In this document: in pieces, positions 8,755-30,802 of the stretch
Layout of the letters: the number at the start of each line of letters is the position of its first letter
How positions within the stretch are numbered: position 1 is the first letter of the stretch
Assembly (NCBI RefSeq): GCF_022179545.1
Contig: NZ_AP025518.1
Location: forward strand, 5,890,001-5,954,000
Source of the DNA: Mycolicibacterium fortuitum subsp. fortuitum
GTDB taxonomy: Bacteria > Actinomycetota > Actinomycetes > Mycobacteriales > Mycobacteriaceae
DNA: 64,000 bases
Direction: 5' to 3'
Program-made: the position numbers and the translations under genes
Notes under the pieces: generated by a model
Databases searched by the model: none
What the model was told of the DNA's origin: nothing
What the model saw: the letters and a program-made list of their open reading frames with translations, nothing else

Positions 8755-8884
8755 CCACGATCGCGTGCTGACGCCGCTATTCGCCGCTGCGCGCGGTCAC
8801 CGCTGACATACACTGACCCCGCACGCCGGCATTAACCGAACTGGCGCTTGAACACCGTTTCAGCAAAGTCGACAGGAGAATTCG

Positions 8885-8944
8885 GTGGCGAGACTACGGT
8901 TCTTCACCGAACCGCATCTCGATGGCAGACAGCTGCGCACATGA
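8885..8944 (+). CDS. Possible 19-residue leader ORF coupled to the flippase gene
   Basis: GTG at 8885 is preceded by AGGAG (8874-8878) at ideal spacing, the best ribosome site in this gap. The ORF encodes VARLRFFTEPHLDGRQLRT and its TGA (8942-8944) overlaps the flippase ATG (8941) as ATGA. The flippase start itself has no visible ribosome site, so the small ORF may serve to deliver ribosomes to it. A function of the peptide itself is not implied. The alternative is that the GTG is a chance codon. Confidence 0.45.
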   Translation: MARLRFFTEPHLDGRQLRT

Positions 8945-10449
8945 CTCCGATCGATCCCGCCGACCCACCGATCGAAGACCCAGGCCGAGCTATTCAAGAT
9001 TCGCCGACAGCCAAGTCGGCCAACCTCGGCAAGCAGACGCTCTGGAACTACACCGTATTTGCCATAAGCAAAAGCTCCACACTGTTGATGACCGTGGTGG
9101 TCGCGCGTCTGCTGACCCCAGCCGAATTCGGCATCTTCGCCCTGGCGTTGTTGCTGGTGAACTTGTTCGATTACGTAAAAGACCTCGGTGTCGCCGAGTC
9201 GCTGATCCAAAGTCACCGACCCTGGAATCGAATCGCCCCAACCGGATTGACCCTGTCCATCGGATTCGGGGTTATCGCCGGAGCAGTGCTGGCCGCAACT
9301 GCAGGCATCGCAGCCAACCTGTTGCATCACCCCGACCTCGCTCCGTTGATCCGGGTTCTGGCAATCGCGTTGATGATCTCGGCCCTCAGCGTCGTGCCGT
9401 TGTCCTGGTTGCGCCGTGACCTGAACTTCCAGCGACGCTTGTTGCCGGAGTTCGTCGGCGCGGTGGTCAAGACGGGGCTCACCATCTGGCTCGCAGCCAC
9501 CGGCCATGGGGTGTGGAGCCTGGTCTACGGCCAACTCGCCGGCGTTCTGATAACCGCGATCATGTACTGGTGGGTCGCACCGACATTCATGTGGCCACGG
9601 TTTCAGCTGGACGAAGCCAAGGCGCTGCTGCAGTTCGGAATTCCCGTCACCGGCGTGACTCTGCTCGCCTACGCCATCTACAACGTCGACTATCTGGCCG
9701 TCGGAACCCGGCTCGGCACGACCGAACTCGGCCTGTATACCCTGGCTTACCGGGTGCCCGAGCTCGTCGTGCTCAACTTGTGCAGTGTCATCAGTGACGT
9801 GCTGTTCAGCTCGATGTCGAGGCTGCAGCACGAACGCGAGGCCATGTCATCGCAGTACCAGAAGGCATTGAGCATCGTCCTTGCGCTGACCGTGCCGGCC
9901 GGTGTCGGCCTGGCAGTGGTCGCGGGGCCACTCCTGCACGTTCTGTACGGGACACAGTACGACGGCGCCAAGAACATCTTGATCGTGCTGGCCCTGTACA
10001 CAGCCGTCTATTCAGCCTCCTTTCACGCCGGTGACGTGTTCAAGGCGGCGGGCCGCCCCGGCCTGCTCACCGCGATCAACGCGGCCAAACTCGTGCTGCT
10101 GCTCGGCCCCATCTGGTGGGCCGCCGGCCATAGCGCGACACTGGTTGCCGTAGCCCTTCTCAGTGTGGAGCTGGTTCATTTCGTCATCCGAATGACGGTG
10201 GTACGTCGAGTTATTCCACTACGGTGGACGCAGATTCTCTGCGTGGTCGGCCGACCGGTGGCAGCGGCAATCCCCATGGCCGCCATCCTGGTTGGCATCG
10301 GGCTCTTGGTTTCCCACTGGTCTGCACCGGTGCAGCTAGCCCTCCTGATTCCATTGGGAATGGTGATCTATGCAGCAGCACTGTGCGTCACTGCGCCGCA
10401 GTTGGCGCGTCCGCTCGCCGGTCGTTTGGCAGGAAGATTGCGAACATGA
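8941..10449 (+). CDS. Wzx-like polysaccharide flippase
   Basis: 502 aa, multi-spanning (about 12-14 hydrophobic helices). The start NLGKQTLWNYTVFAISKSST and VVVARLLTPAEFGIFALALL are typical of the MOP-superfamily oligosaccharide flippase family, which moves undecaprenyl-pyrophosphate-linked repeat units across the membrane. The downstream Wzz- and Wzy-like genes support a Wzx/Wzy-dependent export system. The stop overlaps the next start (ATGA at 10446). The ATG at 8941 was chosen because the family-typical sequence begins about 25 residues later and no good upstream alternative exists in this frame. Confidence 0.88.
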   Translation: MTPIDPADPPIEDPGRAIQDSPTAKSANLGKQTLWNYTVFAISKSSTLLMTVVVARLLTPAEFGIFALALLLVNLFDYVKDLGVAESLIQSHRPWNRIAPTGLTLSIGFGVIAGAVLAATAGIAANLLHHPDLAPLIRVLAIALMISALSVVPLSWLRRDLNFQRRLLPEFVGAVVKTGLTIWLAATGHGVWSLVYGQLAGVLITAIMYWWVAPTFMWPRFQLDEAKALLQFGIPVTGVTLLAYAIYNVDYLAVGTRLGTTELGLYTLAYRVPELVVLNLCSVISDVLFSSMSRLQHEREAMSSQYQKALSIVLALTVPAGVGLAVVAGPLLHVLYGTQYDGAKNILIVLALYTAVYSASFHAGDVFKAAGRPGLLTAINAAKLVLLLGPIWWAAGHSATLVAVALLSVELVHFVIRMTVVRRVIPLRWTQILCVVGRPVAAAIPMAAILVGIGLLVSHWSAPVQLALLIPLGMVIYAAALCVTAPQLARPLAGRLAGRLRT

Positions 10450-11045
10450 GTAGCCCAAAGCGCCTATGGCTGAACCCAATCGTGGTGACGTGCGCGGTCC
10501 TCGGCCTCGTTCTCGGCGCTATCGCCGGATTCCTTTTCCCGGTGTCGACGACCTATCGCGCAACCGCACAAGTGGCCCTGGTTCCTGGGCCGAACTTGAC
10601 CACCGCGGACGCGTCGGCCTACTGGGAGGTACTCACCCAAGGGCAGGTATCACGTACCGCGGCGGCCGTCTTCGCTGATCCGCGGTGGACATCCAGCGCC
10701 GCATCGGCGGCCGAAGTCGACGAATCGAGTCTCATCCTGACGGCCGGTGCAGTGCCCGACACCACCATGGTGTCGATCACGGCCGACGCGCCCTCCGAGC
10801 ACGCCGCGCGGGCCGCGGTGGCCGATCTTCTCGCAAAGGCCACACCTGAAGTCGCGGCCGTCTCGGCTCCGTTCCAGGTCCGCGTGGTGTCACCGCCGAG
10901 CGGCGCGTACGCGATGGTGACGCCACGCAGCCAGCTGATCCTGGCCGGTGCGCTCGCCGGACTGATGTTCGGTGCCGCAGTCGGAATCGGCGTCACCTGG
11001 TGGCGCTCACGCGAAAGCAACGCCTCCCACCGAAGCAACAAATAG
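10446..11045 (+). CDS. Wzz-like chain-length determinant protein
   Basis: 199 aa with one transmembrane helix near each end (about 12-32 and 164-187) and a periplasm-side middle. After the first helix comes TTYRATAQVALVPG and further on TTMVSITADAPSEHAARAA, the Wzz pattern of a beta strand followed by a helix with conserved small residues. Such proteins set the length of polymers made by Wzy. There is no cytoplasmic tyrosine-kinase domain. It overlaps the flippase stop by ATGA and ends 2 bases before the next start, so it lies in the same operon. Confidence 0.75.
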   Translation: MSSPKRLWLNPIVVTCAVLGLVLGAIAGFLFPVSTTYRATAQVALVPGPNLTTADASAYWEVLTQGQVSRTAAAVFADPRWTSSAASAAEVDESSLILTAGAVPDTTMVSITADAPSEHAARAAVADLLAKATPEVAAVSAPFQVRVVSPPSGAYAMVTPRSQLILAGALAGLMFGAAVGIGVTWWRSRESNASHRSNK

Positions 11046-11047
11046 CC

Positions 11048-12913
11048 GTGCCCGAGGTGACCCGCTCCAGCAGATGGATCGTCGGCGTCCTCGTTGTCAT
11101 GGTGATCGTCGAAATTGCCAACTTGTCCGAGGTAGCCAGCGCGTACACCTCGGCACCGCTGTTGAAAGCAGGTGTGGCCCTTGCCACCATCGCCTTGTGT
11201 CTGACACTGCGCGACCCCGCGGCGCGTGCCCGGCTCAATCGCTGGACGGTGGCCGGCGCCGCTTTGATCGGCATCTACGTGGCCGGGCAGGCGATCGCCA
11301 TGGTCGGCTCTGTCGACCTCACTGCCTCGTCGAGCGTCATGTATCGCTCTTCGGTGGACCTGGTGTACCTGTTCATCATTCTGATGTTCACCCAGATCAC
11401 CGGACGGCCGTGGGCAGTCGCCGCGGCTGTGGCCGCCACTTTGGCCGTGCTCTCGCTGTTGACCTTGGTCAGCTACCTGACGGGCGGAGTTCAGACGTTC
11501 GGAGGGCTGGCACAGATTTCCGCCGCACAGGGCGAATTGATCACGACACAGCGGTACAGCGGGCCCTATAACGACTCCAATTTCTGGGGCCGAGTACTGG
11601 TGATGGGCCTGCCCATGTCCTGGGCGCTGGCCTATCGCGCCCGCGGTGCCGCGCAGAAGCGACAGGCGCTGCTCTGGTTGTTGGCCGGTGCAGCCATATT
11701 GGTCGGGGTCTATCTGACCCAGTCCCGCGGAACGCAATTGTCAGCCGGACTCGCGGCGGTGGTGTGGTTCATCGCGTCGGGACAGCCGAAAAAGCTGGCG
11801 CTCGTCCCGCCCGCCGTGTTGGTGGCATTCGCGATCCCCGGTATCGGTGACCGGATGATTGCGCTGGTAAAGGACGTGCTCGGCGGGTCCGGTGGTCAGA
11901 GGAGCTACGACATCGACCCATCGGTCCTCGGCCGCGAGGCGTCCCAGGAGATGGCATGGCAGATGTTCCGGCACCGGCCCGCCTTCGGCTTCGGACCAGG
12001 GGCCTTCGGTGCGGAGGTGCCGTTTTACACCGACCGGGTGAAGACGGCCGTCAACGAAGGCCTCGTCGCCCCGCACAATCTCTACGCCCAACTCCTTGCC
12101 GAGACCGGGATGACCGGGCTGCTGACCTGGGGGCTCATGGTCGGCGGAGTCCTGACGATCGTGGCGCTGCGAATAGCCGCCGATCCCAGGTCGGTTGACC
12201 GCGCTCTGGCTGCCGCAACGCTCACCGGCATCATCACCTGGTCTGCAGCAAGTGTGTTTCTTCACCTGGCTTATTTCCGATCGTTCGCGATCGTGCTCGC
12301 CCTGGCCTGCGCACTGGGGCCGCCCGAACCCGTACGACCCGCGGTGATCCGCGGCATGGTGCGGACAACTGCGCTGTGGGCGGTGACTGTCATCGCCGGT
12401 GTCGCAGTTGCTGCGGGAAGTATGTTGACGGCGAGCACGCCCGCTGTGCGCGCCAGCCAGAAGGTCATCATGATGCCCGTCGGCCCGCTCGACGGCTGGG
12501 CTTCCTACGCGATGAATGTCCGTGCCCGAGAAGCGTTTCTGCCGACCATGGTCGAAGTCATGTACAACACCGAAGCACCTGCCGAAATAGACTCCGACTC
12601 GATTCGCGGTATCGCGACGTTCTCGGTCACCGCGTCCGATGCCGAGAGCGCCAAACGGCGGCTGGCCAATGCATTAGCGGTGTCCCGCACTCGAATCAAT
12701 GACAACATTGGCCCGATGCAGTACACCGTCGAGACCATCACCGGTGTGGAGTTGGAACGCACGTCCGTGCGTTCCAAGTCCGCTCTGCTCTACGCGGCAG
12801 CTTGGGGTTTGGTCGCGATGGTGATGACCCGCCTGCTGGCAGGCCGACTCGCGACCCGATTCTGGCCTCCCATACGCACGAGCTCGACTGAGCCGGCGGG
12901 GGCCGCGGTATGA
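11048..12913 (+). CDS. Wzy-like O-antigen polymerase/ligase with C-terminal Wzz-like module
   Basis: 621 aa from the GTG at 11048; a GTG at 11000 would add 16 residues overlapping the previous gene. About ten hydrophobic helices and a large loop with RQRYSGPYNDSNFWGRVL and HNLYAQLLAETGMTGLLTW match the O-antigen ligase/polymerase family, which joins repeat units outside the membrane. After helix ~450 there is an extracytoplasmic stretch (VRASQKVIMMPVG; ATFSVTASDAESAKRRLAN) and a last helix near 600: a layout and motif like a Wzz domain. The fusion suggests polymerase and length control in one chain, next to a free-standing Wzz-like protein. It overlaps the next start by ATGA. Confidence 0.78.
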   Translation: MPEVTRSSRWIVGVLVVMVIVEIANLSEVASAYTSAPLLKAGVALATIALCLTLRDPAARARLNRWTVAGAALIGIYVAGQAIAMVGSVDLTASSSVMYRSSVDLVYLFIILMFTQITGRPWAVAAAVAATLAVLSLLTLVSYLTGGVQTFGGLAQISAAQGELITTQRYSGPYNDSNFWGRVLVMGLPMSWALAYRARGAAQKRQALLWLLAGAAILVGVYLTQSRGTQLSAGLAAVVWFIASGQPKKLALVPPAVLVAFAIPGIGDRMIALVKDVLGGSGGQRSYDIDPSVLGREASQEMAWQMFRHRPAFGFGPGAFGAEVPFYTDRVKTAVNEGLVAPHNLYAQLLAETGMTGLLTWGLMVGGVLTIVALRIAADPRSVDRALAAATLTGIITWSAASVFLHLAYFRSFAIVLALACALGPPEPVRPAVIRGMVRTTALWAVTVIAGVAVAAGSMLTASTPAVRASQKVIMMPVGPLDGWASYAMNVRAREAFLPTMVEVMYNTEAPAEIDSDSIRGIATFSVTASDAESAKRRLANALAVSRTRINDNIGPMQYTVETITGVELERTSVRSKSALLYAAAWGLVAMVMTRLLAGRLATRFWPPIRTSSTEPAGAAV

Positions 12914-14103
12914 CGGACAATCGCACAGTCCTGGTTGAATTTTCACCGTCGGGTGGCCTTTTCCAGTTCGCCGCTCAACTCGGCAGCGCCCTGGCAGAGC
13001 ACGGGGACGAGGTCGAACTGTGGACCGGCCCAGACCCCGAAATCACCTCGGCAGAAGCCGGATACCCCATTCGCCCGGTGCTGCCCACCTGGCACCCCAA
13101 CGACAACCCGGACAGCGGTTACCTGGGATATCTGCTGCGCCGCGGGCGGCGGGCCGGCCAGTTGGTGCTGGCCTGGCTGGTGCTGGCGTACCAACTCCGC
13201 CGCCGGCCTCCGCGGGCGGTCCTGTTCTCACAATGGCGATTCACCTTCGAGCCGTGGTTCGTCGTAGCCATCTGCAAGGTCATGCCACGGACGGTCTTCG
13301 GCATCATCGCCCACGAGCCACTGCCTCGCTCCGATGCCAAGGACACCAGCAAGCCCAAGGAAGGCCGCCTGCTACAGGCGTCGTTCGCGGCCGCCTGGCG
13401 ACAGATGGACGTCGTGTTCGTGTTGGGACCCCAAACCCGGCAGATCGTCATCGACCACTGGCGGCCCAGTTGCGACGTCGTGGTGATTCCACATGGTGAC
13501 TCCGGTGCGTTGCATCGTGATCGCCCACCGGTACCGGTCGCCCAGACCGAACCAGTCGCTCTGTTTTTCGGCACGTGGACCACCTACAAGGGCATTGATG
13601 TCTTGATCGATGCCTTCGCACTGGTCAAAGCCGAGATGCCGGCCGCGCGCCTGATCATCGCAGGCGCTCTCAGCGCCGATGTGGATGCCGCAGATCTGCT
13701 CGCCCGGGCCGCCGCGATTGGAGTCGACGCCAGACCGGGCTATTGCGCGATGGACGAAGTCCCCGGGCTCGTTGAATCTGCCAGGGTCATGGTCACGCCC
13801 TATATCCGCGCCAGCGCCAGCGGCGTGGCCCACCTCGCCTACACATTCGGTCGTCCGGTCATCGGAACCACGGTCGGCGACCTACCCGCCGCCATCGAAG
13901 ACGGCATCACCGGGCTTCTGGTTCCGCCGAATGACGTCCTGAAGCTGGCTGACGCGATGCTGATGCTGCTGCGGGATCCGGAACTGGCCGCACGACTCGG
14001 AGCGGCAGGTCAGGCCGCGGTCCAGCGATCGTGGAGCGTTGCGGCAACCGCGGTCAGCGACACGGTGACCGCCGCTACCAAACGGGTCAGCCCGGAGTCG
14101 TGA
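12910..14103 (+). CDS. GT4 family glycosyltransferase
   Basis: 397 aa, GT-B fold. The N-terminus has EFSPSGGLFQFAAQLGSAL; the C-terminal Rossmann half has ALFFGTWTTYKGIDVLIDAF, LIIAGAL and PYIRASASGVAHLAYTFGRPVI. The usual acidic E-x7-E of GT4 is replaced by a serine/alanine-rich loop, so the donor may be unusual or binding altered. It presumably acts in cytoplasmic assembly of the repeat unit. The start overlaps the polymerase stop (ATGA at 12910); the next gene follows after 3 bases. Confidence 0.8.
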   Translation: MTDNRTVLVEFSPSGGLFQFAAQLGSALAEHGDEVELWTGPDPEITSAEAGYPIRPVLPTWHPNDNPDSGYLGYLLRRGRRAGQLVLAWLVLAYQLRRRPPRAVLFSQWRFTFEPWFVVAICKVMPRTVFGIIAHEPLPRSDAKDTSKPKEGRLLQASFAAAWRQMDVVFVLGPQTRQIVIDHWRPSCDVVVIPHGDSGALHRDRPPVPVAQTEPVALFFGTWTTYKGIDVLIDAFALVKAEMPAARLIIAGALSADVDAADLLARAAAIGVDARPGYCAMDEVPGLVESARVMVTPYIRASASGVAHLAYTFGRPVIGTTVGDLPAAIEDGITGLLVPPNDVLKLADAMLMLLRDPELAARLGAAGQAAVQRSWSVAATAVSDTVTAATKRVSPES

Positions 14104-14106
14104 GCC

Positions 14107-15114
14107 ATGGCGACCCATCGAGTCCGCTGGAAGATCGCCCTCATCACGCTCGCGGTGTTGGCCGCCATCATCATCGTCACGAGGAGCGCCGACGACGACC
14201 GCTCCCGGCACGGATTCGTGCAACCACCGACATCCGCTCTACCCCCATTGACCACGACGCCGCGATTACCTGCGATGCCGCAACCGTTCGCCGAGAACAG
14301 TCCTTTTCGGACACCGATTCCGGCGGACGCCGAAGCCGACCCCAACAGTGCGGCAATGATCAGCTCCGTCGGCTGGGATGACAGCGCCTACGTGTCGACC
14401 ATCGAATACGGGATCCCGATCTACACCGCGAACGCAGGCACCCCACGCTATTCCGTACCGTGCCTCATCACCACGTGGGGCCACTGTCCGTTCAATGGGC
14501 ACCGGGTGCCGATACCCGACGACGCACTACCACAGTACGGCTCAGACGGCTCAATGGTGGTGGTTGACCCGCAGAACCGAAAGATATACGAATTCTGGCG
14601 CGCCATGCGTGAAAAACACCGCTGGACAACCCAATTCGCTGCCGTGAATGACCTCGACGGCTCCGGCTGGGGCGGCGCCAGCACAGGTTCGGGCGCATCC
14701 CGGCTGGCTGGTGTCGTCCGAGTGGCGGAGATCGCGCAGGGCTCAATTCCGCATGCGCTGGCGATGGAGAGCAACAATGTGTGCGCCAAGATCTTTCGGC
14801 CGCCGGCTCTCAAGACCGACGGCCGGTCGACAAGATCCGACTGCATCCCCGAAGGTGCCCGCTTACAGCTGGACCCGAGCGTGGACATCGATTCCTTGGG
14901 GCTCGCACCGGCCGAGCGTTTCATGGCCGAAGCGCTCCAGCGCTACGGCGCATACATCACCGATGTCAGCGCATCCCCTCTGAGCATCAGCTTCGAGCGG
15001 GACAACACAGCACCCTCCGGAACCGTCGGGAAAACCTACAGCGACGCCGGAGTCCGATGGGACTATGACGGGATGACGGACATCCCTTGGAAGAAATTGA
15101 GGGTTCTCAAATGA
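14107..15114 (+). CDS. Exported protein of unknown family in the polysaccharide operon
   Basis: 335 aa. One hydrophobic helix (about 10-24, IALITLAVLAAIIIV) after a basic start is a signal anchor; a proline/threonine-rich linker follows, then a globular domain (about 75-335). Recognisable features are YGIPIY, CLITTWGHCPFNGH with two cysteines, GSDGSMVVVDPQNRKIYEFW and GGASTGSGASRLAG. I do not recognise the family with confidence; the histidine/aspartate-rich beta segments could suit a polysaccharide lyase or binding protein. Its place between glycosyltransferase genes, with ATGA overlap to the next, implies a job on the polymer outside the cell. Confidence 0.7.
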   Translation: MATHRVRWKIALITLAVLAAIIIVTRSADDDRSRHGFVQPPTSALPPLTTTPRLPAMPQPFAENSPFRTPIPADAEADPNSAAMISSVGWDDSAYVSTIEYGIPIYTANAGTPRYSVPCLITTWGHCPFNGHRVPIPDDALPQYGSDGSMVVVDPQNRKIYEFWRAMREKHRWTTQFAAVNDLDGSGWGGASTGSGASRLAGVVRVAEIAQGSIPHALAMESNNVCAKIFRPPALKTDGRSTRSDCIPEGARLQLDPSVDIDSLGLAPAERFMAEALQRYGAYITDVSASPLSISFERDNTAPSGTVGKTYSDAGVRWDYDGMTDIPWKKLRVLK

Positions 15115-16253
15115 AGCCGATTCGGGTGCTCACCTTGATCGACGGGTTCCGGATGGGCGGCGCTGAAACACTTTTGGCGCCACTGGCCGTCGCAATGCGT
15201 GAGACCGACGTCGACATGGAATTCGTCGGCCTGGACAGTGCCGCAGTCAACTCCGAGAAGACCTTGGCCATCCTCGCCGAAGCGGGCGTACACCCGCGCT
15301 CGCTCGGAATCACCCGCCTGCTGGACCCCACCGGTATTCCCCGTCTGGCCGGCGAGATCAGACGCGGAGGCTACGACCTGGTGCACACACATCTGGAAAT
15401 GTCAGCCAGCTTCGCGGTACCGGCAGCAAAACTCACCGGCCGTCCCGTTGTATGTACGTTCCACCACGTGACCGAACGGTGGCCCGGCCTCGAATACTGG
15501 CGCGAACACGTTGCCACCAAAGCCGCCACGCTGGGCGACCGCGTGTTGTTCGTCTCCGAGGCCAGCCGGGTGTCGTGGGCGAAGGTGCATCGTCGAGGCA
15601 GGGCTGCCGCCAACTGGGACGTGCTGCACAACGGGATCGACGTCAGCAACTTCCGCCCTGGCGAAGCCGACCCGGCCGTGCGTCACGAACTCGGCGGTGG
15701 GCCTGGACCTTTGGTTGTACTACCAGCCGCCTTCCGCGACTTCAAGGGGATACCGGTGGCGATCAAGGCCTGGCCGCTGGTCTTGCACAAACACCCAAAT
15801 GCCATCTTGTCGCTGGTGGGGGGCGGTGAGGAAGAGAACCAATACCGCAGGCTCGTCAGCGACCTACGTTTGACCGACTCGGTGATATTCGCCGGCGTTC
15901 GCTCCGACATGCCACAGGTGTACCGGGCTGCGGACGTCATTCTGCTGCCGTCGGTCTACGGTGAGAACCTGCCGACCGTGTTGATCGAGGCGTCGGCGTC
16001 GGGCAAGGCCATCGCCGCGTCCAGGATCGGCGGCATCCCAGACATCATTGTCGACGGCTCCACTGGTCTCTTGTTCGAGCCCAACAATCCCACTGCGCTG
16101 GCCGACACCGTCACACGGTTGCTGAGCGATCCTCAACTTCGGGCGTCGCTGGGTCCGCCGGCAATCAAGCGCGCCCACACCGAGTTCTCAGCGACAACGT
16201 GGGCGCACCGACTGCAAGAGCTCTACACCGAACTGATCGAGCGCAAGCGTTGA
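15111..16253 (+). CDS. GT4 family glycosyltransferase
   Basis: 380 aa. Typical GT-B: N-terminal LIDGFRMGGAETLLAPL (glycine-rich acceptor loop), VHTHLE, CTFHHVTERW, HNGIDVSNF, then GENLPTVLIEASASGKAI with the E-x7-E donor motif and SRIGGIPDIIVDG. It probably transfers a hexose in repeat-unit assembly. The ATG at 15111 overlaps the previous stop (ATGA); the last bases overlap the TTG start of the next glycosyltransferase (TTGA). Confidence 0.9.
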   Translation: MKPIRVLTLIDGFRMGGAETLLAPLAVAMRETDVDMEFVGLDSAAVNSEKTLAILAEAGVHPRSLGITRLLDPTGIPRLAGEIRRGGYDLVHTHLEMSASFAVPAAKLTGRPVVCTFHHVTERWPGLEYWREHVATKAATLGDRVLFVSEASRVSWAKVHRRGRAAANWDVLHNGIDVSNFRPGEADPAVRHELGGGPGPLVVLPAAFRDFKGIPVAIKAWPLVLHKHPNAILSLVGGGEEENQYRRLVSDLRLTDSVIFAGVRSDMPQVYRAADVILLPSVYGENLPTVLIEASASGKAIAASRIGGIPDIIVDGSTGLLFEPNNPTALADTVTRLLSDPQLRASLGPPAIKRAHTEFSATTWAHRLQELYTELIERKR

Positions 16254-17455
16254 GCGGCAAGCAGATCGACTACCTGGTTTCCCGGTTCCCGGTCACCTCC
16301 GAAACGTTCATCGTCAGGGAACTCGATGCCTTGTCTGCTGACGGCCGCCAGCTGGGGCTGCGATCCCTGTTCCCGTCACCGGATCCGCAAGTCCACGACA
16401 TTGCCCGGCCGTGGGTCGACAAGTTGGTGCGCCCCGGTGTCGGAGCGAGTATCGCCGGGCTGCTGTGGGCCCTGATCCGGCACCCCGTCATCACATCGTC
16501 GATCTTCTTCGATGTGACGCGGGGTTACGCCACCCGGCCCAACCTGCTGATCCGCGCCCTCGCCACCATCCCGATCGCCACCGCGCACGCCCGCGATCTC
16601 CACTCAGCGGGCATCTCACGCCATGTCCACGCCCACTACGCCACGTATCCGGCGCTGGCCGCATGGATCTGTTCGCGACTGGTGGGTGTCAGCTACAGCA
16701 TCACGATTCACGCGCACGACCTGTACGTGGACCAGTCGATGCTGGGCCGCAAACTCGACGGCGCGGAGTTCATCGTCACCGTGTCGGATTACAACCGGCG
16801 ACTTCTGGAGCGATACACCGAGACCCCCGTCCACGTCATCCATGCCGGAATCAATACCTCTGCATACCCATTCAACCCGAGGAGAATCCCCGACCACGGC
16901 CCGATCAACGCCCTGTGCGTCGCCTCGCTGCAGGAGTACAAGGGCCACGAAGTGCTATTGCGTGCGTTAGCTCTCGGCGGCTCCGTCGTCGAGCGGATCG
17001 AGCTGGACTTGATCGGCGACGGACCGCTCCGCAACGAATTGCAGGATCTGGCAACCGAGCTCGGGCTGAGCTCGCGGGTACGGTTCCACGGTGGCCAGTC
17101 TGAGACGGTTGTCAGGCAGGCACTGGCCGAGGCTGACCTCTTCGTGTTGCCGAGCGTTGTCGCCGCCGACGGTCAGATGGAGGGACTGCCCGTCGCTCTC
17201 ATGGAGGCGCTCGCCAGCGGAATACCTACCGTGTCGACGCGCTTGTCCGGTATCCCGGAGTTGTTGATACCCGAGCAGACTGGATTTCTCGCAGTCCCCG
17301 GTGACGCGCAGAGCCTGCATGACACATTGGAACAGCTGCTCGCGTCGGGCCCGGCACTCGACGAGTACGAGCGCGCAGGACGCCATCTGGTCGAGCGGGA
17401 ATTCGACATCAACGCAACGACAGCCGCGCTGCGCGCCCTGTTGGCGACGATCTGA
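16250..17455 (+). CDS. GT4 family glycosyltransferase (TTG start)
   Basis: 401 aa. The start YLVSRFPVTSETFIVREL, HAHYATYPALAAW, ITIHAHDLYVD, GPLRNELQDLATELGL and EGLPVALMEALASGIPTV are classic for GT4 colanic-acid/capsule type transferases. No ATG or GTG fits; the TTG at 16250 overlaps the previous stop as TTGA and places the conserved YLVSRFP motif about 8 residues in, so I chose it. It is the last gene of the plus-strand assembly operon and converges on the tandem hydrolase gene with a 13-base gap. Confidence 0.88.
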   Translation: MSGKQIDYLVSRFPVTSETFIVRELDALSADGRQLGLRSLFPSPDPQVHDIARPWVDKLVRPGVGASIAGLLWALIRHPVITSSIFFDVTRGYATRPNLLIRALATIPIATAHARDLHSAGISRHVHAHYATYPALAAWICSRLVGVSYSITIHAHDLYVDQSMLGRKLDGAEFIVTVSDYNRRLLERYTETPVHVIHAGINTSAYPFNPRRIPDHGPINALCVASLQEYKGHEVLLRALALGGSVVERIELDLIGDGPLRNELQDLATELGLSSRVRFHGGQSETVVRQALAEADLFVLPSVVAADGQMEGLPVALMEALASGIPTVSTRLSGIPELLIPEQTGFLAVPGDAQSLHDTLEQLLASGPALDEYERAGRHLVEREFDINATTAALRALLATI

Positions 17456-17468
17456 GGAGACGGCGTAC

Positions 17469-19181
17469 TCAGAGCTGGTCGGCAAACTCACGACGCGTGG
17501 CAGCCAGCAAATACTGTCGGATGAAGTTCTGCAAGCCGCGATGTAGCACGGCATGGTCACCGGCGGGTGCCTGCGTCAACTTCGGCGCCCAACCGCGGCG
17601 CGCCAGCCGCTTGGCTCCGATCGGGCCGCGATGCCCCACGTACCAATCGAAATCCATCGGTGACAGTACGAGTTCAGTGGGCACTCCGCTCTCTCCGAGC
17701 GCTGCGAGGAGCACCTCTGGCGCTTGCGTATAACCGAGCCGACCGAGTAGCAACCAACCCTGATAGGGCAGCCAATTCCGCAGGCCTTGCTTCACCAGGC
17801 CCCACAGCCGTCGCTGCCCAGTGTTCTCATCGCCGGCCGCATCGTCTGAAACGTCATCGGTGACCTGCGCGATCCGTTCCGACCCGCCCTCGGAACGCCG
17901 CAACGAATACAGCAGGATGTTGACCAGGACCACCAGTCGCGCTCCGCGCTCCAAACCCCCATAGGCGGAATTCCAAGCACCCGAGCAGATTCCGGTCATG
18001 ATCAACCGCTCGGGCGGCACCCCCAGCGCGTCGACCGCATCGGTGACATCAGCTTTGGCGACCGGCGAGTGCATCCACGGGAAGTCTTCGGTGGCGATGC
18101 CGGTGTCACCGACCCCACGACGGTCGTAGCGGACCACACTCACGCCGAGAGCGGCGAGTTGGCGAGCCGTATCCGGCCAGATTCGCCCGGAACCCACCCG
18201 GTGCTCGCATGCGGTGTTGTGGAACAACACTGTGGGGCCGCCTGCGGGTGTACCGGCGAGCTCGGTACGGATGGCAAACAGCCGGTTGGCACCGAGTTCG
18301 ATGATCGATTCGGTTACCGTCCGACCGTCGGGCAACCTGTCGACCACTGCCCGGTCGGCAAACACCGGCTGGAACGAACCGGCCTCCGATGGCAGATTGT
18401 CGTCCAGCCATTTCTCGATCGTCGCCAAGGTGTCCATCGGAATCTTCACCACGATGCTGGGTGGTTCGACGAATTCGGGCTGCCCGGCAATTTCCTGGAC
18501 CGCGCAATTTCGTGCTGCGCGCAGGTCTGCGAGCCTCCGATCCTCGGCGTGTTCCGGACGGATCAGCACCAGTGCCGGCGTCGATCCTGCAGCTGCCGGC
18601 ATCTTCAGCGCGCGCAGGCCGGCGGCGGCAGTCGTAGAGAGAGTTATGCCCAGGAGCGGCACCGTGCCCGGTTCTGGCGGCAATTCGTCTGCGTCTTGCC
18701 CACCGACCGTCATCTGGTAAAGCGCCTGTTGTTCGCGCAGGTAGCGGCGACCATCGGTGGCCGGATCCCACAAGATCAGCCCGTCAAGGCCCTCGATCGA
18801 GGCGGCTGCTGTCGCTGCCAGCAAGGCACCGACCCTCAGACCGATCAGTGCCACGCTCTGCGCTCCGGACGCACGCAGATAGTCCACCGCAGTCTGGATG
18901 CTCTCCAGGTAGCCCTCCACGGCGCTGTCCCGGCATTGATCAGCCGTCGAATCCCCGGTGCCTCGATAATCGAAGCGCAACACGGCAAATCCCCTGCTGC
19001 ACAGGTGCTGTGCCAGCAGCTTCAAACCGCGATAGGTGTCCAGGTGCTGCCGGCCGAGCGGTGGACAGATGACCACACCCGCTCGGGCCACCCCGTCGCC
19101 AGGCACATGCAAAACACCGAAAAGCCGCGCTTCTTCGGGGCCGAACCAAGTCGGCACCCCTTGCCTGCTGCTATCAGCCAT
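17469..19181 (-). CDS. Tandem alpha/beta-hydrolase fusion, exosortase-A-locus type
   Basis: 570 aa made of two alpha/beta-hydrolase domains (about 1-265 and 270-570). Domain 1 has VLRFDYRGTGDS and, at the nucleophile elbow, GLRVGALLA (114-122), with Arg116 instead of serine. Domain 2 has VVRYDRRGVGDTG and GICSGAW (397-403), with Cys399 at the nucleophile position. These two elbow types recall the hydrolase 2 and hydrolase 1 families that sit in exosortase-A exopolysaccharide loci of Proteobacteria; that match is from memory. It follows the phosphopantetheinyl transferase gene by 69 bases. The function may be in acyl or aminoacyl transfer rather than hydrolysis. Confidence 0.72.
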   Translation of the reverse strand: MADSSRQGVPTWFGPEEARLFGVLHVPGDGVARAGVVICPPLGRQHLDTYRGLKLLAQHLCSRGFAVLRFDYRGTGDSTADQCRDSAVEGYLESIQTAVDYLRASGAQSVALIGLRVGALLAATAAASIEGLDGLILWDPATDGRRYLREQQALYQMTVGGQDADELPPEPGTVPLLGITLSTTAAAGLRALKMPAAAGSTPALVLIRPEHAEDRRLADLRAARNCAVQEIAGQPEFVEPPSIVVKIPMDTLATIEKWLDDNLPSEAGSFQPVFADRAVVDRLPDGRTVTESIIELGANRLFAIRTELAGTPAGGPTVLFHNTACEHRVGSGRIWPDTARQLAALGVSVVRYDRRGVGDTGIATEDFPWMHSPVAKADVTDAVDALGVPPERLIMTGICSGAWNSAYGGLERGARLVVLVNILLYSLRRSEGGSERIAQVTDDVSDDAAGDENTGQRRLWGLVKQGLRNWLPYQGWLLLGRLGYTQAPEVLLAALGESGVPTELVLSPMDFDWYVGHRGPIGAKRLARRGWAPKLTQAPAGDHAVLHRGLQNFIRQYLLAATRREFADQL

Positions 19182-19250: not shown

Positions 19251-19655
19251 CTACTCAGCGCAAACTGCGACCACGACAGCCGCTGCGTGACAGTCGGTGT
19301 GGGTTATCGATACCGAGACCTCTTGCCACTGCTGTTCTGCAGCCAATTGCGCTGCCGAACCGGTCAGCCGCAACGTCGGCAGCCGATCTGAGATGACAAG
19401 TTCGATTTCGAGCGGGACGAACGCGGCGTCCGGCCGTCCGAATGCCTTGATGGCCGCCTCTTTGGCGGCGAACCGGGCAGCCAGCCGCGCCACCCGATCA
19501 GGACCGGTACAGGTGGCGACCTCGCCGGGGGTGTAGATCCTGGTCAGGAAGCGGTCATCGAACGAGGTCAACGAATTTTCGATTTCCCCGACCGCCACCA
19601 CATCGCACCCGACACGAATGCGGTGCCCAGGCAAATCGAAGTCCGGCGGCTCCAC
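19251..19655 (-). CDS. AcpS-type phosphopantetheinyl transferase
   Basis: 134 aa. It attaches the 4'-phosphopantetheine arm of CoA to a carrier-protein serine. The AcpS signatures are present: GCDVV with Asp18, and RFAAKEAAIKAFG with Lys65-Glu66 as metal and CoA ligands. The C-terminal SITHTDCHAAA matches the usual S-[IL]-[ST]-H strand. It lies 5 bases after the carrier-protein stop, so the natural substrate is probably that carrier. A housekeeping AcpS is expected elsewhere in a mycobacterial genome, making this a dedicated copy. Confidence 0.88.
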   Translation of the reverse strand: MEPPDFDLPGHRIRVGCDVVAVGEIENSLTSFDDRFLTRIYTPGEVATCTGPDRVARLAARFAAKEAAIKAFGRPDAAFVPLEIELVISDRLPTLRLTGSAAQLAAEQQWQEVSVSITHTDCHAAAVVVAVCAE

Positions 19656-19660
19656 CTGGT

Positions 19661-19897
19661 CTACTTCATGAGGTCGTTGATGGCCGCTTCGATGTTGTTG
19701 ATCGACGCGAAAGTGGACTTCTTCAGCGCCTCGTCGGGGAACTCGATATCGAACTCGTCCTCCAGGGCCAGCATGACATTGACCGATGCGTGAGACGTGA
19801 GCCCGAGTTCATACAGGTCAGCATCGGCATCCACAGCCGTCGGATCGACCGACATTCTCCCGTGATCAGCCAACGCCTTCTGAATTACTTCCCGCAT
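19661..19897 (-). CDS. Small carrier protein (aminoacyl/acyl carrier type)
   Basis: 78 aa, starting at the ATG at 19895-19897 (the open frame reaches 19966 but the extension is unlike a carrier protein). It is a four-helix carrier fold: DADLYELGLTSHASVNVML carries Ser35, the expected phosphopantetheine site, in LTS rather than the usual DSL, followed by LEDEFDIEFPDEAL. This LTS-x-ASV pattern resembles the carriers served by amino acid:[carrier protein] ligases such as Bradyrhizobium Bll0956. It is the first gene of a carrier-PPTase-hydrolase operon and diverges, over 119 bases, from the lipase-like and ligase genes. Confidence 0.87.
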   Translation of the reverse strand: MREVIQKALADHGRMSVDPTAVDADADLYELGLTSHASVNVMLALEDEFDIEFPDEALKKSTFASINNIEAAINDLMK

Positions 19898-20016
19898 GAA
19901 GAGCAAGCATAAGGCGCGGCCAAACACAATGCGCCGGTGTTTCCCATGACGAATTCCGGGAAGCACACCCTCCGGCCTGGCTAGGCTCAGTTCGCATACG
20001 ACCCGAGGGGAGCTCG

Positions 20017-21192
20017 ATGATGCGTCGCGGTCTGGTACTGATCACCGCAGCGATGATGGCGCTCATCGGTTGTGGATCCCACTCCGAGACCGAGAAGACC
20101 GCTACCGAGGAAGCCGGCGACCCTCACCACCTCAGCGCCGTTCCGCTGACGAACGTTGTCGACTCTGTCCGTGATGCCGCCGGGTCCATGAACGTCGTCA
20201 CCCACATTTCTCGATCCGGTATCTACGACGGTGAAACACATTTCAATACCACGGTTTTCACGCCAAAGGGCGAAGCTCCTGACCGCGGGTTCCCCATCGT
20301 CGTGGTGGGGCATCGGATCACTGGGACGACCTCGGACTGCGCACCGTCTCTCTCCCCCACCCTGCTCGACCTGGCACCGACTATCACAGCACTTCTGAAT
20401 GCCGGGTACATCGTGGCGGTTCCGGATTTCCAAGGCCTCGGCAAGCCGACGGTCGACACCAACTACGACGACACCTATCACCCGTATTTGGACTCCACGA
20501 CCGGCGGGTACAACCTGATCGACGCGGCGCACGCGGCCCATGCCGGCGAGCCGCAAGCATCGACGTCATGGCTGGCAATGGGGATAGGCGAGGGTGGTCA
20601 GGCCGCGTGGGCGGCCAACGAACTCGCCGTCGACTACAACAACTTCGGCGGCGATTTCGTGGGTTCGGTGAGCATTTCCCCGCTGTCCGACCTCAACGGA
20701 CTCGCCGATGCCGCACAGAACGGGACGCTGAACGACGATCAGAAGGTGGCGTTTGCCCGTTTCACAGCCGCGCTTCACGCCGAGTACCCCGAGGTCGTCA
20801 ACCTCGATGACTACCGTCGGGGCGCAGCGACCCAACATTGGAATGCCCTGCTCGGCTGCCAACTCACTCCGAGCGCCCTGCAGGTGGCAGCGCAGATCCC
20901 AGCGACGGATCTGCAGCCGGCCAACGCCGAAGCGGTGAACACACTGCGGGGGTTTCTCCAGAAGACCAACCTGCCGCAGGGACCGGCACAGGCCCCGATG
21001 CTGGTCAGTTACAGCGGCGACGAACCACTCAGCCCGGCCTCGTGGACCGACCGCGCGCTCGCTGCGGCGTGCAAGATGGGTGACACCATCACCATCCAGC
21101 GTCAACCGCAACCCGTGCCGGATTCCGCAACGACGCTGTCGTGGATAAGCGACCGATTCAAATCAACACAGGCCCAGAACGACTGTCGATAG
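20017..21192 (+). CDS. Lipase-fold lipoprotein lacking the catalytic serine
   Basis: 391 aa. A signal peptide with lipobox LIGC (Cys19) indicates an anchored lipoprotein. The body resembles the secretory lipase (LIP) family: FPIVVVGHRITG, GYIVAVPDFQGLG and an elbow that reads G189-I-G-E-G-G194, where family members have G-x-S-x-G-G. Position 191 is glycine, so the nucleophile is missing; the acidic SGDEPLSP segment remains, and no obvious catalytic histidine lies in the C-terminal PQPVPDSATTLSW stretch. It may bind a lipid or acyl group instead of cleaving it. It is 9 bases upstream of the carrier-protein ligase gene, probably co-transcribed. Confidence 0.78.
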   Translation: MMRRGLVLITAAMMALIGCGSHSETEKTATEEAGDPHHLSAVPLTNVVDSVRDAAGSMNVVTHISRSGIYDGETHFNTTVFTPKGEAPDRGFPIVVVGHRITGTTSDCAPSLSPTLLDLAPTITALLNAGYIVAVPDFQGLGKPTVDTNYDDTYHPYLDSTTGGYNLIDAAHAAHAGEPQASTSWLAMGIGEGGQAAWAANELAVDYNNFGGDFVGSVSISPLSDLNGLADAAQNGTLNDDQKVAFARFTAALHAEYPEVVNLDDYRRGAATQHWNALLGCQLTPSALQVAAQIPATDLQPANAEAVNTLRGFLQKTNLPQGPAQAPMLVSYSGDEPLSPASWTDRALAAACKMGDTITIQRQPQPVPDSATTLSWISDRFKSTQAQNDCR

Positions 21193-21201
21193 GGTTGGCA
21201 G

Positions 21202-22149
21202 ATGACCGAGGCTCAGGACATCGACGTGAAACTCGAATCGGCCCGCCGCGAGTTCCGTGACGAACTGATCGAAGCGGGATTGCTGATCCCGATGGGAATC
21301 GACGGACTGTACGGCCGCGGAGCGGTTTTCGAGGGCATCATCGATGGCATCGATTACGCGGTCCGGGCCAAGGGCGCCGAAGTCTACGGCGACCGCGCGA
21401 AGGTCCTTCGGTTCCCGCCCGTCTTCCCGCGTGAACAATTCGAAAAGACCGACTACATCGCGTCTTTCCCGGATCTGACCGGGGCCATCTCGACGTTCAC
21501 CGGCGGGAACGCCGAGCACCGCGCCCTGTTGGCGGACCGTGATGCCGGCCTGCCATGGGATGGGCATCTGAATCCTGCTGGCACCATGCTGGTTTCGGCT
21601 GCCTGCCATCCGAGCTACGCGACGCTGCCGTCCGACCTGCCCGACGGTGGTGTACTGATGGATATCTACGGATACTGCTTCCGGCACGAGCCGGCCATAG
21701 ATCCAGCTCGGATGCAGGCCTTCCGGATGCACGAGTACGTCCTGGTCGGAACTCCCGAGCAAGCGCAGGCCCACCGTGACAACTGGGTGGATCACGGCAT
21801 GGCGGTGCTCACCGGGTTGGGTCTGGACGCCCGCCCGGCCGCCGCCAACGACCCCTTCTTCGGCAGGGTGGGCAAGATGCTGGCCGCCAACCAGCGCGAA
21901 GAGGAACTCAAGACCGAACTTCTGGTGCGGCTGTACGGCGACCTGCACGAGGGCACCGCAGTGGTGTCGGCAAACTGCCACCGTGACCACTTCGGTCAGA
22001 CATTCTCCCTGCACACCGCCGACGGCGGCGTCGCGCACAGTGCGTGTGTGGGCTTCGGCATGGAGCGAATCGCCTTGGCGCTGGTACGAACTCACGGCCT
22101 TGATCCCGCCGCGTGGCCGATGCCGGTGCAGACCGCCATGGGCCGGTAG
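21202..22149 (+). CDS. Amino acid:[carrier protein] ligase (seryl-tRNA-synthetase-like)
   Basis: 315 aa. A class-II synthetase catalytic core without a tRNA-binding arm. Motif 2 is FRHEP (Arg161-Glu163) and motif 3 is GFGMERIALAL (Arg289). Cys135 (AACHP), Glu178 (HEYVLVG) and Cys282 (SACVGFG) correspond to the zinc ligands of Bradyrhizobium Bll0957, an enzyme shown to activate glycine or alanine and load it on a carrier protein's phosphopantetheine arm. Here the cognate carrier and PPTase genes are divergent neighbours within 1.3 kb. The amino acid and the final acceptor are unknown. It converges on the glycosylphosphotransferase gene (11 bases). Confidence 0.88.
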   Translation: MTEAQDIDVKLESARREFRDELIEAGLLIPMGIDGLYGRGAVFEGIIDGIDYAVRAKGAEVYGDRAKVLRFPPVFPREQFEKTDYIASFPDLTGAISTFTGGNAEHRALLADRDAGLPWDGHLNPAGTMLVSAACHPSYATLPSDLPDGGVLMDIYGYCFRHEPAIDPARMQAFRMHEYVLVGTPEQAQAHRDNWVDHGMAVLTGLGLDARPAAANDPFFGRVGKMLAANQREEELKTELLVRLYGDLHEGTAVVSANCHRDHFGQTFSLHTADGGVAHSACVGFGMERIALALVRTHGLDPAAWPMPVQTAMGR

Positions 22150-22160
22150 CCGGCTGCGCG

Positions 22161-23624
22161 TCAGTACGCGCCCTTGCGCATGAGTACCGCACCGATCGTG
22201 CGCCAGATGATCACCAGATCTCCCACCACAGACCAGTTTCCTGCGTAGGACACGTCGAGACGGACACGGTCCTTGTCGGCCAGATCCGACCGCCCAGACA
22301 CCTGCCACAAGCCCGTCATTCCGGGTTTGACGTGCTCGCGGTGCTCCAGGAATGCGGCATCGGATCCGGCTTCCCCCGGAACCAACGGGCGCGGCCCCAC
22401 CATGCTCATCGAGCCGCCCAGTACGTTGAACAACTGCGGGAGCTCGTCGATGCTGCTGGCGCGTAGGAACTTTCCGACCTTGGTGACGCTGGAAGGCGAC
22501 GAGCGTTTGTTGAACATGCTCTCCGCGTGCTGCTCATTGGTCTGCGGCAACTTGTCCGTGCCGACATGCATCGTCCTCAACTTGAAGATCCGGAACGTCT
22601 TCTGGTCCATGCCGACCCGTTCCTGCCGATAGAAGACCGGACCACGATCGTCGAGTTTGATCGCCAGCCCGGCCAATGCGATCACGGGAAGGGCGATGAT
22701 GGTGCCGATCGTGCCGAGGACCAGATCAAGGATGCGTTTTGTGATCATCGAAACTCGGTCATGGGTCGGCGCTTCGATGACGAACAGCGGCAAATTCTCC
22801 AGCGGCCGCAGCTGCAGCCGGTGCGTCGCGACCTCCGTCAGTCCCGGGACGACGATGAGCCCGGTGTTGATCGCCTGCATCCGCCATGCGAGAAATTTGA
22901 CCTTCTCAGGCCCGAAGTCTCCGGCGTAGACCGCCGCCAGCGAGTCCGCGCCGGCCGTCTGCACTGCAGCCTCGAGCTCGCTGTCATCGTTGAATCCCAG
23001 AACTGGTACGGGGCCGGTTGGCAGCTCGACAGTCTGCCCGACCATGTCGCCCGCATCCGGAATACAGACCCCGACCACCTCGTATCCCGCGCTGGGCGAG
23101 CGCTGAAAATACTCGGACAGTGTGCGCGCGGCATTGACGTCGCCCAACGCTACGACGCGGTAGACGTACGTTCCCCGCTTTCGCCGCCGACGCACGTCTG
23201 CGCGCAACAGATGCCGGGCAACGAACAGACCGATCAGCCCGAGGCCGAAGGTCACCCCGAATTGAATACGCGAGATCGGCATATCGAGGAACACTTCGGC
23301 AGCAGCGGCAAGCGCGAATGTCCAGCCGGTGGCGGCCGCGACAAGACGGTATTCCTCCGCTTGCTGCCCGACCAGCGTCAGATCACGCGAATGCACATAT
23401 CCGAGGGCGATCAACCAGCCGAAATATATGCCGATCGAAAACGCGGTTGCTGTCGTGAAGCTGGCGAAATGGCGGTGCGCCATCGACGTCCCGATCCATT
23501 CGGCGAAGACGACAGCAGCCGCGAGAACCACGGCATCGGCAACCAGGACACGCCGACGGTACGCCGATTTCCATCGGTGGGCTTGTGCTTTGGCTTGCTC
23601 GCCGTTCGCTGTCACCGGTTCCAC
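22161..23624 (-). CDS. Initiating undecaprenyl-phosphate glycosyl-1-phosphate transferase (WbaP-like)
   Basis: 487 aa. About five N-terminal membrane helices (30-125), a nucleotide-binding-like middle (VVALGDVNAARTL, 155-290), a further helix, and the bacterial sugar transferase domain (about 290-487). That domain shows KRILDLVLG, FRIFKLRTMHVGTD, SIDELPQLFNVLGGSMSMVGPRP and KPGMTGLWQVSGRSDL. It starts repeat-unit synthesis by moving a hexose-1-phosphate from UDP-sugar to undecaprenyl phosphate. With GalU, Wzx, Wzy and Wzz homologues it completes a Wzy-dependent pathway. It is divergent from the esterase gene. Confidence 0.93.
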   Translation of the reverse strand: MEPVTANGEQAKAQAHRWKSAYRRRVLVADAVVLAAAVVFAEWIGTSMAHRHFASFTTATAFSIGIYFGWLIALGYVHSRDLTLVGQQAEEYRLVAAATGWTFALAAAAEVFLDMPISRIQFGVTFGLGLIGLFVARHLLRADVRRRRKRGTYVYRVVALGDVNAARTLSEYFQRSPSAGYEVVGVCIPDAGDMVGQTVELPTGPVPVLGFNDDSELEAAVQTAGADSLAAVYAGDFGPEKVKFLAWRMQAINTGLIVVPGLTEVATHRLQLRPLENLPLFVIEAPTHDRVSMITKRILDLVLGTIGTIIALPVIALAGLAIKLDDRGPVFYRQERVGMDQKTFRIFKLRTMHVGTDKLPQTNEQHAESMFNKRSSPSSVTKVGKFLRASSIDELPQLFNVLGGSMSMVGPRPLVPGEAGSDAAFLEHREHVKPGMTGLWQVSGRSDLADKDRVRLDVSYAGNWSVVGDLVIIWRTIGAVLMRKGAY

Positions 23625-25189: not shown

Positions 25190-25912
25190 TTACTTCCACA
25201 GTGCCTCTATTGAGGTGACGGACTGCCCCAGCGCACGCGCACTCAGCGCACGCAAAGCACGCCGCTCTACGACCTCGAAACTCGCCCCGACGTGTTCGTG
25301 CAGGGCGGTGCGTCCGGCGTCGAGCTGTCCGTCGAGCAGCAGGTCCACGATCTGGAGATGTTCGTCGATGGTGGCGATCACCCGCTCCTCGGTGACGAAG
25401 TCATACATGCGGATGAGCCGGATCCGCCGGTTGACGTTGTCGAGCGCGGCCACCATCGCCTTGTTCCCGGATGCCGCACACAGCTCGACGTGAAACGCCT
25501 CATCACGCAGCACCATGTCGCCGTCCGGGGCCGGCGGACTGGCTTTCAGTTCCGACCACTCGGCGCGCAGAGCGGCGAGCCGCTGGTTGTCATAGCGCAG
25601 CTCGTCGGTTTCCAGGATCCGCGTGATGCCGCGCAGTTCGATGGTGATCCGAAGCTCATAGAGATCACGAACCCCCGGGATGTCCAGGGCGACAGGGTAA
25701 TACCCGTCGGCCCTGCGCTCGAGCATGCCGTCGGCGTGCAGCCGGACCAGAGCCTCCCGCAGTGGGGTCCGGCTGACATTGAGTGTTTCGCACAACTGGG
25801 ACTCCACCAGCCTCGTGCGATCGTCGATCTCCCCGGCCATGAGCAACTTGCCGAGTTCGAGGTAGACCCGGTCGCGCAGGGAGACCGGTTCCTCCACCCG
25901 CACCGTGGTCAC
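25190..25912 (-). CDS. GntR-family regulator, FCD subgroup
   Basis: 240 aa from the GTG at 25912, which overlaps the stop of the amidase gene as GTGA. The N-terminal winged helix (about 10-75: [22 protein letters not shown]) and the C-terminal all-helical FCD ligand domain (about 90-225: [43 protein letters not shown]) are clear. FCD domains bind small carboxylates through metal-coordinating His/Asp residues. As third gene of the permease-amidase operon it probably controls that operon through the GTATACCG palindrome near 27.9 kb. Confidence 0.92.
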
Positions 25913-27902: not shown

Positions 27903-27906
27903 GGCT

Positions 27907-27924
27907 GTATACCGTGCGGTATAC
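27907..27924. promoter_or_regulatory. Palindromic operator candidate for the GntR regulator
   Basis: GTATACCG-TG-CGGTATAC is a perfect 8-bp inverted repeat with a 2-base centre, ending 4 bases before the permease start codon. FCD-type GntR regulators commonly bind such G-T-A-x-A-C palindromes. A bound dimer here would block the transcription start. No ribosome site fits between it and the ATG, so the mRNA may be leaderless. Confidence 0.6.
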
Positions 27925-27970
27925 GGATTACCCAGGCATTTCTGCCGATGAACGTTCCGTAACGGGGTCC

Positions 27971-27990
27971 TCACCGCCGCGCGGCGGTGA
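27971..27990. repeat. Perfect 20-bp palindrome in the permease-amt intergenic region
   Basis: TCACCGCCGCGCGGCGGTGA is fully self-complementary with no spacer. It sits between the GntR operator candidate and the amt upstream region. It may be an operator for another dimeric regulator or form a cruciform; no T-tract follows. Confidence 0.55.
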
Positions 27991-30788: not shown

Positions 30789-30802
30789 GAGGGAGACAAC
30801 AT

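Follow-up and report, generated by a model that had tools for sequence, protein, structure and literature searches.

A protein built of two alpha/beta hydrolase halves (here called the double hydrolase) was found to be a constant partner, among the surveyed relatives, of the amino acid:carrier ligase encoded in a 64,000-nucleotide stretch of Mycolicibacterium fortuitum subsp. fortuitum DNA (contig NZ_AP025518.1, positions 5,890,001 to 5,954,000; hereafter the window). A first-pass annotation, made from the sequence of the window, had described this ligase with its carrier protein and an AcpS-like phosphopantetheinyl transferase; the double hydrolase gene adjoins them, lies outside the span considered there and had been missed. 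We tentatively propose that the four genes form a cassette that activates an amino acid and hands it on to a sugar, which we regard as quite possible, if short of probable. The cassette genes are as follows (window coordinates; gene starts are at the level of open reading frames, ORFs).

17469..19181, minus strand: double alpha/beta hydrolase, 570 aa, proposed aminoacyl transferase (catalytic triad, co-occurrence and structure model)
19251..19655, minus strand: AcpS-like 4'-phosphopantetheinyl transferase (TIGR00556, 66.2 bits)
19661..19897, minus strand: carrier protein, 78 aa, phosphopantetheine serine S35 at 19793-19795 (NF005480, 95.1 bits)
21202..22149, plus strand: amino acid:[carrier protein] ligase, 315 aa (NF005479, 432.3 bits; 4h2w, E 2.3e-71)

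The double hydrolase accompanies the ligase

The survey covered 101 loci, namely 80 named loci, 20 stretches from genomes of the same order and the window. The named loci were the best 80 of 570 relatives, with ligases 46-83% identical to that of the window, and represent only a part of the family. Recurrent partners were defined by clustering the neighbour genes, scanning representatives for known families and then counting members with local profiles. Where at least 8 kb was available on each side of the ligase (73 full-flank loci), the recurring partners were the carrier (71 loci), an acyl-CoA-dehydrogenase-like flavoprotein (56), the double hydrolase (52), AcpS (43), DUF1839 (37) and a GH2-like glycosidase (37), and none of them was present in 20 control regions taken from four of these genomes. 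The median gap between ligase and double hydrolase genes was 9 nt in the 52 full-flank loci having both. A double hydrolase accompanied 77 of the 80 named ligase loci, in the same genome or locus; this number comprises 35 of the 38 genomes that were searched whole and all 42 remaining loci, in which the double hydrolase lay inside the fetched stretch.

The same association was seen when whole genomes of the order were compared. Among 298 such genomes, a ligase match was present in 43, a strong one (E ≤1e-99) in 16 and the double hydrolase in 19. The double hydrolase was found in 15 of the 16 strong-ligase genomes versus 4 of the 282 others (Fisher test ignoring relatedness, 9e-21), and at the genus level in 8 of 9 versus 0 of 67 (5e-10, again ignoring relatedness). 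The limit for a strong ligase was placed at a gap in the match list, between E 1e-99 and 5e-90, after the list had been inspected; the double hydrolase was present in 12 of 12 genomes when the curated cut-off alone was applied and in 15 of 43 when all matches were admitted. At most four double hydrolase candidates were scored per genome in the order scan, which may therefore miss weak or odd members.

Four order genomes had a double hydrolase without the ligase. Two of these, of the same genus, keep a carrier and AcpS beside the double hydrolase (L139, 6360-13641, and L140, 9041-12225) and gave no match to the amino acid:carrier ligase, and the other two are less complete (88% and 75%). In L139 the double hydrolase ORF starts inside the final part of an adenylation-carrier-thioesterase gene, possibly reflecting a swap of the loader.

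A conserved Cys-Asp-His triad in the second half

In the second half of the window protein, a triad was located at C399 (17985-17987), D510 (17652-17654) and H543 (17553-17555), with the Cys in a G-x-C-x-G motif. When 55 double hydrolases were aligned (two of 57 clustered sequences were excluded by length), the Cys was kept in 55/55, the His in 54/55 and the Asp in 48/55. The nucleophile position of the first half was occupied by Arg in 43 of the 55 proteins, including that of the window, and by Ala in seven, Gly in three and Ser in two.

An AlphaFold2 (AF2) model, built on 20 sequences, had a mean pLDDT of 88.9 and a pTM of 0.90. C399 is placed between a strand (393-398) and a helix (400-412), in an arrangement like a nucleophile elbow, while Asp510 lies shortly past the next-to-last strand and His543 past the last strand, which is the order of a hydrolase triad. 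Structure searches with Foldseek and VIA-align retrieved single alpha/beta hydrolases (esterases, lipases and thioesterases), which aligned mostly to the first half. No evident signal peptide was seen when the N-terminus was judged by eye. Cys triads occur in polyhydroxyalkanoate synthases, in dienelactone hydrolase and in the aminoacyl shuttles SyrC and CmaE.

Ligase, carrier and AcpS-like transferase

The three ORFs of the first-pass annotation are present and intact, and their codon-position GC is of the coding type. The ligase had been assigned to the type of Bradyrhizobium Bll0957, and this assignment holds: its score to the amino acid--[acyl-carrier-protein] ligase family NF005479 lies above the curated cut-off of 357 bits, and the nearest solved structures are the Bll0957 entries 4h2w and 3mey (E 1e-69 for the latter). 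Across 17 aligned sequences, C135, R161, C282 and R289 were invariant and E178 was conserved at 90% or more; the letters of the zinc ligands and of the class-II motif 2 and 3 arginines were identical in the alignment with Bll0957. The tRNA-binding N-terminal part of seryl-tRNA synthetase is missing from the 315-aa protein, which matches only positions 307-505 of the 518-position NF002120. The most similar ligases among the named loci are from Mycobacterium.

The 78-aa carrier with its LTS phosphopantetheine site was likewise borne out. It passes the NF005480 cut-off of 72 bits and has the LTS serine, and since the match begins at residue 24 of the long carrier ORF, it fits a start at 19897. 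Its match to the DltC profile was weak (23.2 bits, cut-off 68). The AcpS-like protein passes the TIGR00556 cut-off (45.35) and does not reach AcpS proper (TIGR00516, 58.7 bits, cut-off 59.8). The transferase had also been called dedicated, which is plausible, the gene being one of three ACPS-family matches in the window genome. By family membership, the ligase would load an amino acid on the carrier of its cassette, as follows from families with tested members.

A further ligase copy was noted in genome G238 (L045, 9533-10513), with no carrier or double hydrolase in the fetched stretch and with an altered motif, GGSGGAQAAD, where the window ligase has GRVGKMLAAN.

Reduced and fuller cassettes

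Seven of the 73 full-flank loci contain ligase, carrier and double hydrolase and lack the flavoprotein, DUF1839 and GH2. These window-type loci are the window, L040, L041, L042, L044, L047 and L102, the last from a Thiomonas metagenome-assembled genome (MAG). DUF1839 (PF08893) gave no match in the window genome and was not found in the other four same-genus genomes with a strong ligase, so that it was rejected as the transferase of the window. An orthologous flavoprotein elsewhere in the window genome was also rejected, the best matches reaching 69 bits and none E 1e-50. Across the 16 strong-ligase order genomes, the flavoprotein (at E 1e-50) was present in 8, DUF1839 in 8 and the double hydrolase in 15. 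With neither DUF1839 nor the flavoprotein in the window genome, the strongest candidate aminoacyl transferase there is the double hydrolase.

The window locus could instead be the decaying remnant of a fuller cassette that makes no product, as the flavoprotein, DUF1839 and GH2, common in its relatives, are missing from it. We consider this very improbable. When compared with locus L042, the ratio of nonsynonymous to synonymous substitution rates (dN/dS) was 0.12 for the ligase, 0.11 for the carrier, 0.18 for AcpS and 0.13 for the double hydrolase. This indicates purifying selection on the four genes, so that the reduced cassette is probably in use, and decay was rejected on this ground. The ligase also keeps its motifs, and the same reduced set occurs in seven loci, one of them in the Thiomonas MAG. 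Against the more distant L044, where dS is high, the ratios were 0.29 for the ligase and 0.41 for the double hydrolase.

In the fuller cassettes a different enzyme could form the final bond, with DUF1839, papain-like and CcbD-like, joining the amino acid to a surface sugar as an amide and the double hydrolase serving another role in the pathway. DUF1839 is present in 37/73 loci at a median gap of 20 nt from the ligase gene. The best Protein Data Bank matches of its AF2 model (built on 6 sequences, pLDDT 88.4) were AziU3/U2, CtaG and CcbD. DUF1839 has been grouped with papain-like enzymes, with a suggested part in glycan processing (PMC10318531), and CcbD is described as taking a carrier-bound amino acid on the Cys of its triad and passing it to a sugar amino group (PMC12945683). 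The match to CcbD agrees with a prediction made for DUF1839 in 2010, in a note added in proof that foresaw a cell-surface sugar ligated through its amino group (PMC2922099). This route leaves the window unexplained, since DUF1839 is absent there as from the other four same-genus strong-ligase genomes, and its presence in 8 of the 16 strong-ligase genomes compares with 15 of 16 for the double hydrolase. We judge this route quite unlikely.

Among 11 aligned cassette flavoproteins no Glu is invariant in the C-terminal part, the region in which true acyl-CoA dehydrogenases carry a catalytic-base Glu, and the enzyme may instead oxygenate the carrier-bound amino acid. In Bradyrhizobium, Bll0957 and the dehydrogenase Bll0958, its flavoprotein neighbour, both appear in a PhaR-dependent proteome (PMC10888616); bll0957 and bll0958 were changed about 3-fold in the phaR mutant reported there, a hint of co-regulation with polymer metabolism.

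Polysaccharide neighbourhood and the putative acceptor

The first-pass annotation had placed the ligase in an exopolysaccharide locus with Wzx, Wzy, Wzz, WbaP and glycosyltransferases. Profile scans of the window found the components of a Wzx/Wzy-dependent locus, that is, flippase, polymerase, initiating transferase and glycosyltransferases. For Wzz, no family matched among the 28 distinct window proteins scanned with Pfam, which are a subset of the window ORFs. The neighbouring genes are as follows.

8848..10449, plus strand: Wzx-type flippase (PF13440, 244.1 bits)
11000..12913, plus strand: Wzy-type protein (PF04932, 68 bits)
12910..14103, plus strand: GT4 glycosyltransferase (PF13692, 81.7 bits)
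15087..16253, plus strand: GT4 glycosyltransferase (PF00534, 122 bits)
16199..17455, plus strand: GT4 glycosyltransferase (PF00534, 113.7 bits)
20017..21192, plus strand: secreted-lipase-like protein, between carrier and ligase (PF03583, 31.4 bits)
22161..23624, minus strand: polyprenyl glycosylphosphotransferase of the WbaP/WcaJ type, the initiating transferase (TIGR03025, 346.9 bits, cut-off 295.55)

The secreted-lipase-like ORF had a match in only 1 of the 20 order regions searched. A 335-aa protein without Pfam match (14107-15114) stands amid glycosyltransferase genes in seven loci including the window (neighbour cluster 18). Farther along lie genes for a GntR regulator (25190-26053) and a cytosine/purine-type permease (26592-27974), followed at 29484-33647 by glutamine-synthetase-like, glutamine amidotransferase and glutamate-synthase-like genes.

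A glycosyltransferase or initiating transferase was found near the ligase in 40 of the 73 full-flank loci versus none of the 20 control regions, as counted with our own profiles, which were built from the surveyed loci and so favour these loci and miss other families. All seven window-type loci stand beside glycosyltransferase genes. The gene neighbourhood thus points to a polysaccharide as the putative acceptor. The first-pass annotation had suggested that the amino acid is placed on an exported polysaccharide or its lipid carrier, and had named a location of the three genes mostly away from polysaccharide loci as the finding that would count against it. The suggestion fits the window-type loci and less well the family, where the 33 of 73 loci without such a transferase count partly against it.

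Several observations weigh against transfer by the double hydrolase to a polysaccharide. By our profiles, 33 of the 73 full-flank loci were without a glycosyltransferase, and none turned up when 13 neighbouring genes from Curtobacterium L120, Nocardioides L118 and Azospirillum L100 were scanned; these genes encode, among others, pyruvate dehydrogenase E1, ClpX, a Mur ligase, a sulfatase and a mechanosensitive channel. The double hydrolase was missing for three of the 80 named loci, in Gordonia otitidis L086, in the small gammaproteobacterial MAG L103 and in Dictyobacter L124, as well as in one strong-ligase order genome (G215), and it was present in 0 of the 27 order genomes having only weaker ligase matches. 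As an in-locus gene the flavoprotein was commoner than the double hydrolase, in 56 versus 52 of the full-flank loci and in 71 versus 57 of the 80 named loci, which indicates that the double hydrolase often lies farther off in the genome. We know of no double hydrolase with known activity, and a Cys triad would also be compatible with a hydrolase. Finally, as judged from its model, DUF1839 is, where present, a good candidate for a carrier-dependent amide former, so that both enzymes would share one cassette.

It is possible, though rather unlikely, that the double hydrolase is a thioesterase that strips misloaded carriers or sets free a modified amino acid, in which case the product would be a small molecule and not a polymer substituent. 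Its fold neighbours, esterases, lipases and thioesterases, would fit such a role, although they align mostly to the first half. The flavoprotein of 56/73 loci is consistent with oxidation of a carrier-bound amino acid, and the loci without glycosyltransferase, including the three scanned above, agree with a product other than a polysaccharide. Thioesterases of this kind usually have a Ser nucleophile, whereas the double hydrolases have Cys in 55/55. In addition, no modifying enzyme is found among the recurrent partners of the window type, so that loading and release would gain nothing, and its double hydrolase stands beside glycosyltransferase genes in 7/7 loci.

Relation to the hydrolases of XrtA loci

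The N- and C-terminal halves of the double hydrolase match TIGR03101 (hydrolase 2) and TIGR03100 (hydrolase 1) of exosortase A (XrtA) polysaccharide loci, both below cut-off; the window protein scored 91.6 bits to TIGR03101 (cut-off 202.75) and 81.8 to TIGR03100 (cut-off 168.45). Because no TIGR03100 match above cut-off was found in 26 ligase genomes, the search for XrtA members moved to the order that contains G304 (the genome with Thiomonas locus L106), of which 120 genomes were scanned. TIGR03100 members above cut-off were present in 19 of the 120, and all 19 kept Cys, Asp and His, the same triad as in the double hydrolase. A hydrolase-2-like gene adjoins hydrolase 1, and in 2/19 the two are a single ORF; these two fused ORFs align with positions 25-566 and 28-566 of the double hydrolase profile.

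A carrier gene with an ELDS motif was present in all 19 XrtA regions, at most 16 nt from a hydrolase gene in 17 and at 122 and 1320 nt in the other two. These counts came from a motif scan, and one of the two carrier seeds (L216, 10664-10915, plus strand) was an antisense ORF. An AMP-forming ligase like the L219 member of TIGR03098 (752.9 bits, cut-off 592.35) was found in 12/19 regions, some of which were short. Since ligase cassettes and XrtA loci both carry a loader, a carrier and the hydrolase pair, two kinds of loader appear with the same hydrolases. The XrtA loci differ from the window in that their loader belongs to another superfamily, and the window protein falls short of both hydrolase families. 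When the C-terminal half of one double hydrolase was used as a query, five proteins were retrieved among 7992 scored candidates, none of them a named XrtA member.

These likenesses raise the possibility, which we find somewhat doubtful, of one general cassette for decorating exopolysaccharides, in which interchangeable loaders would charge the carrier and a shared double hydrolase with an inactive first half and the Cys-Asp-His triad in its second would transfer the charge to a sugar polymer. The loader would be the tRNA-synthetase-like ligase in one lineage and an adenylate-forming ligase in XrtA loci.

Discussion

In the mechanism that we propose for the window cassette, the AcpS-like enzyme would attach phosphopantetheine to S35 of the carrier, and the ligase would then adenylate an amino acid and load it on the carrier as a thioester; both steps are predicted from families with tested members. 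Cys399 of the double hydrolase would accept the aminoacyl group from the carrier, as its co-occurrence with the ligase and the conservation of its active site suggest. The group may then be passed to a sugar, at a hydroxyl or an amino group, a step suggested by the gene neighbourhood. The acceptor would most likely be a cytoplasmic repeat unit, linked to a nucleotide or a lipid, prior to Wzx/Wzy export and polymerisation.

A link between these ligases and polysaccharides is not new in kind, given the prediction printed in 2010 (PMC2922099). The first-pass annotation had stated that the acceptor of the aminoacyl carriers is not known, in agreement with a 2022 review that calls the biological role of the ligases still unknown (PMC9437257). 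What we propose as new is the double hydrolase as partner enzyme and its link to the XrtA hydrolases. Literature searches returned no title about the double hydrolase among the matches listed, which in several cases were the best-ranked ones, and none on the XrtA hydrolases among the best-ranked exosortase matches; a search for the amino acid acyl-carrier-protein ligase together with exopolysaccharide found no paper, and one for ester-linked glycine in polysaccharides gave nothing useful.

Several known systems resemble parts of the cassette. Bll0957-type systems share with it ligase and carrier families above curated cut-offs and the zinc and class-II motif residues, whereas in the window type the flavoprotein and DUF1839 are absent, and genes for an AcpS-like protein and the double hydrolase lie alongside in a Wzx/Wzy locus. 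The shuttles SyrC and CmaE, also alpha/beta hydrolases, use a Cys nucleophile to take aminoacyl groups off a carrier protein and put them onto another carrier; they serve here as a precedent for the proposed role of the double hydrolase. In the DltA/DltC system, D-alanine is loaded on a small carrier for teichoic acids, a surface polymer, and the window differs in that no DltB-like membrane acyltransferase family was matched among the 28 window proteins scanned. The lincosamide condensing enzymes CcbD and LmbD are alike in passing a carrier-bound amino acid to a sugar via an enzyme Cys (PMC12945683). Their fold is cysteine-protease-like, compared with the alpha/beta hydrolase of the window, and is matched by the DUF1839 of the fuller cassettes, which the window genome lacks.

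With the double hydrolase, the search for the destination of the loaded amino acids has a definite protein to start from. Relatedness to the two XrtA hydrolases connects two polysaccharide systems, each of which would thereby gain a role. A general cassette, if real, would fill in the acceptor step still missing for the amino acid:carrier ligases and assign a function to both XrtA-associated hydrolases.

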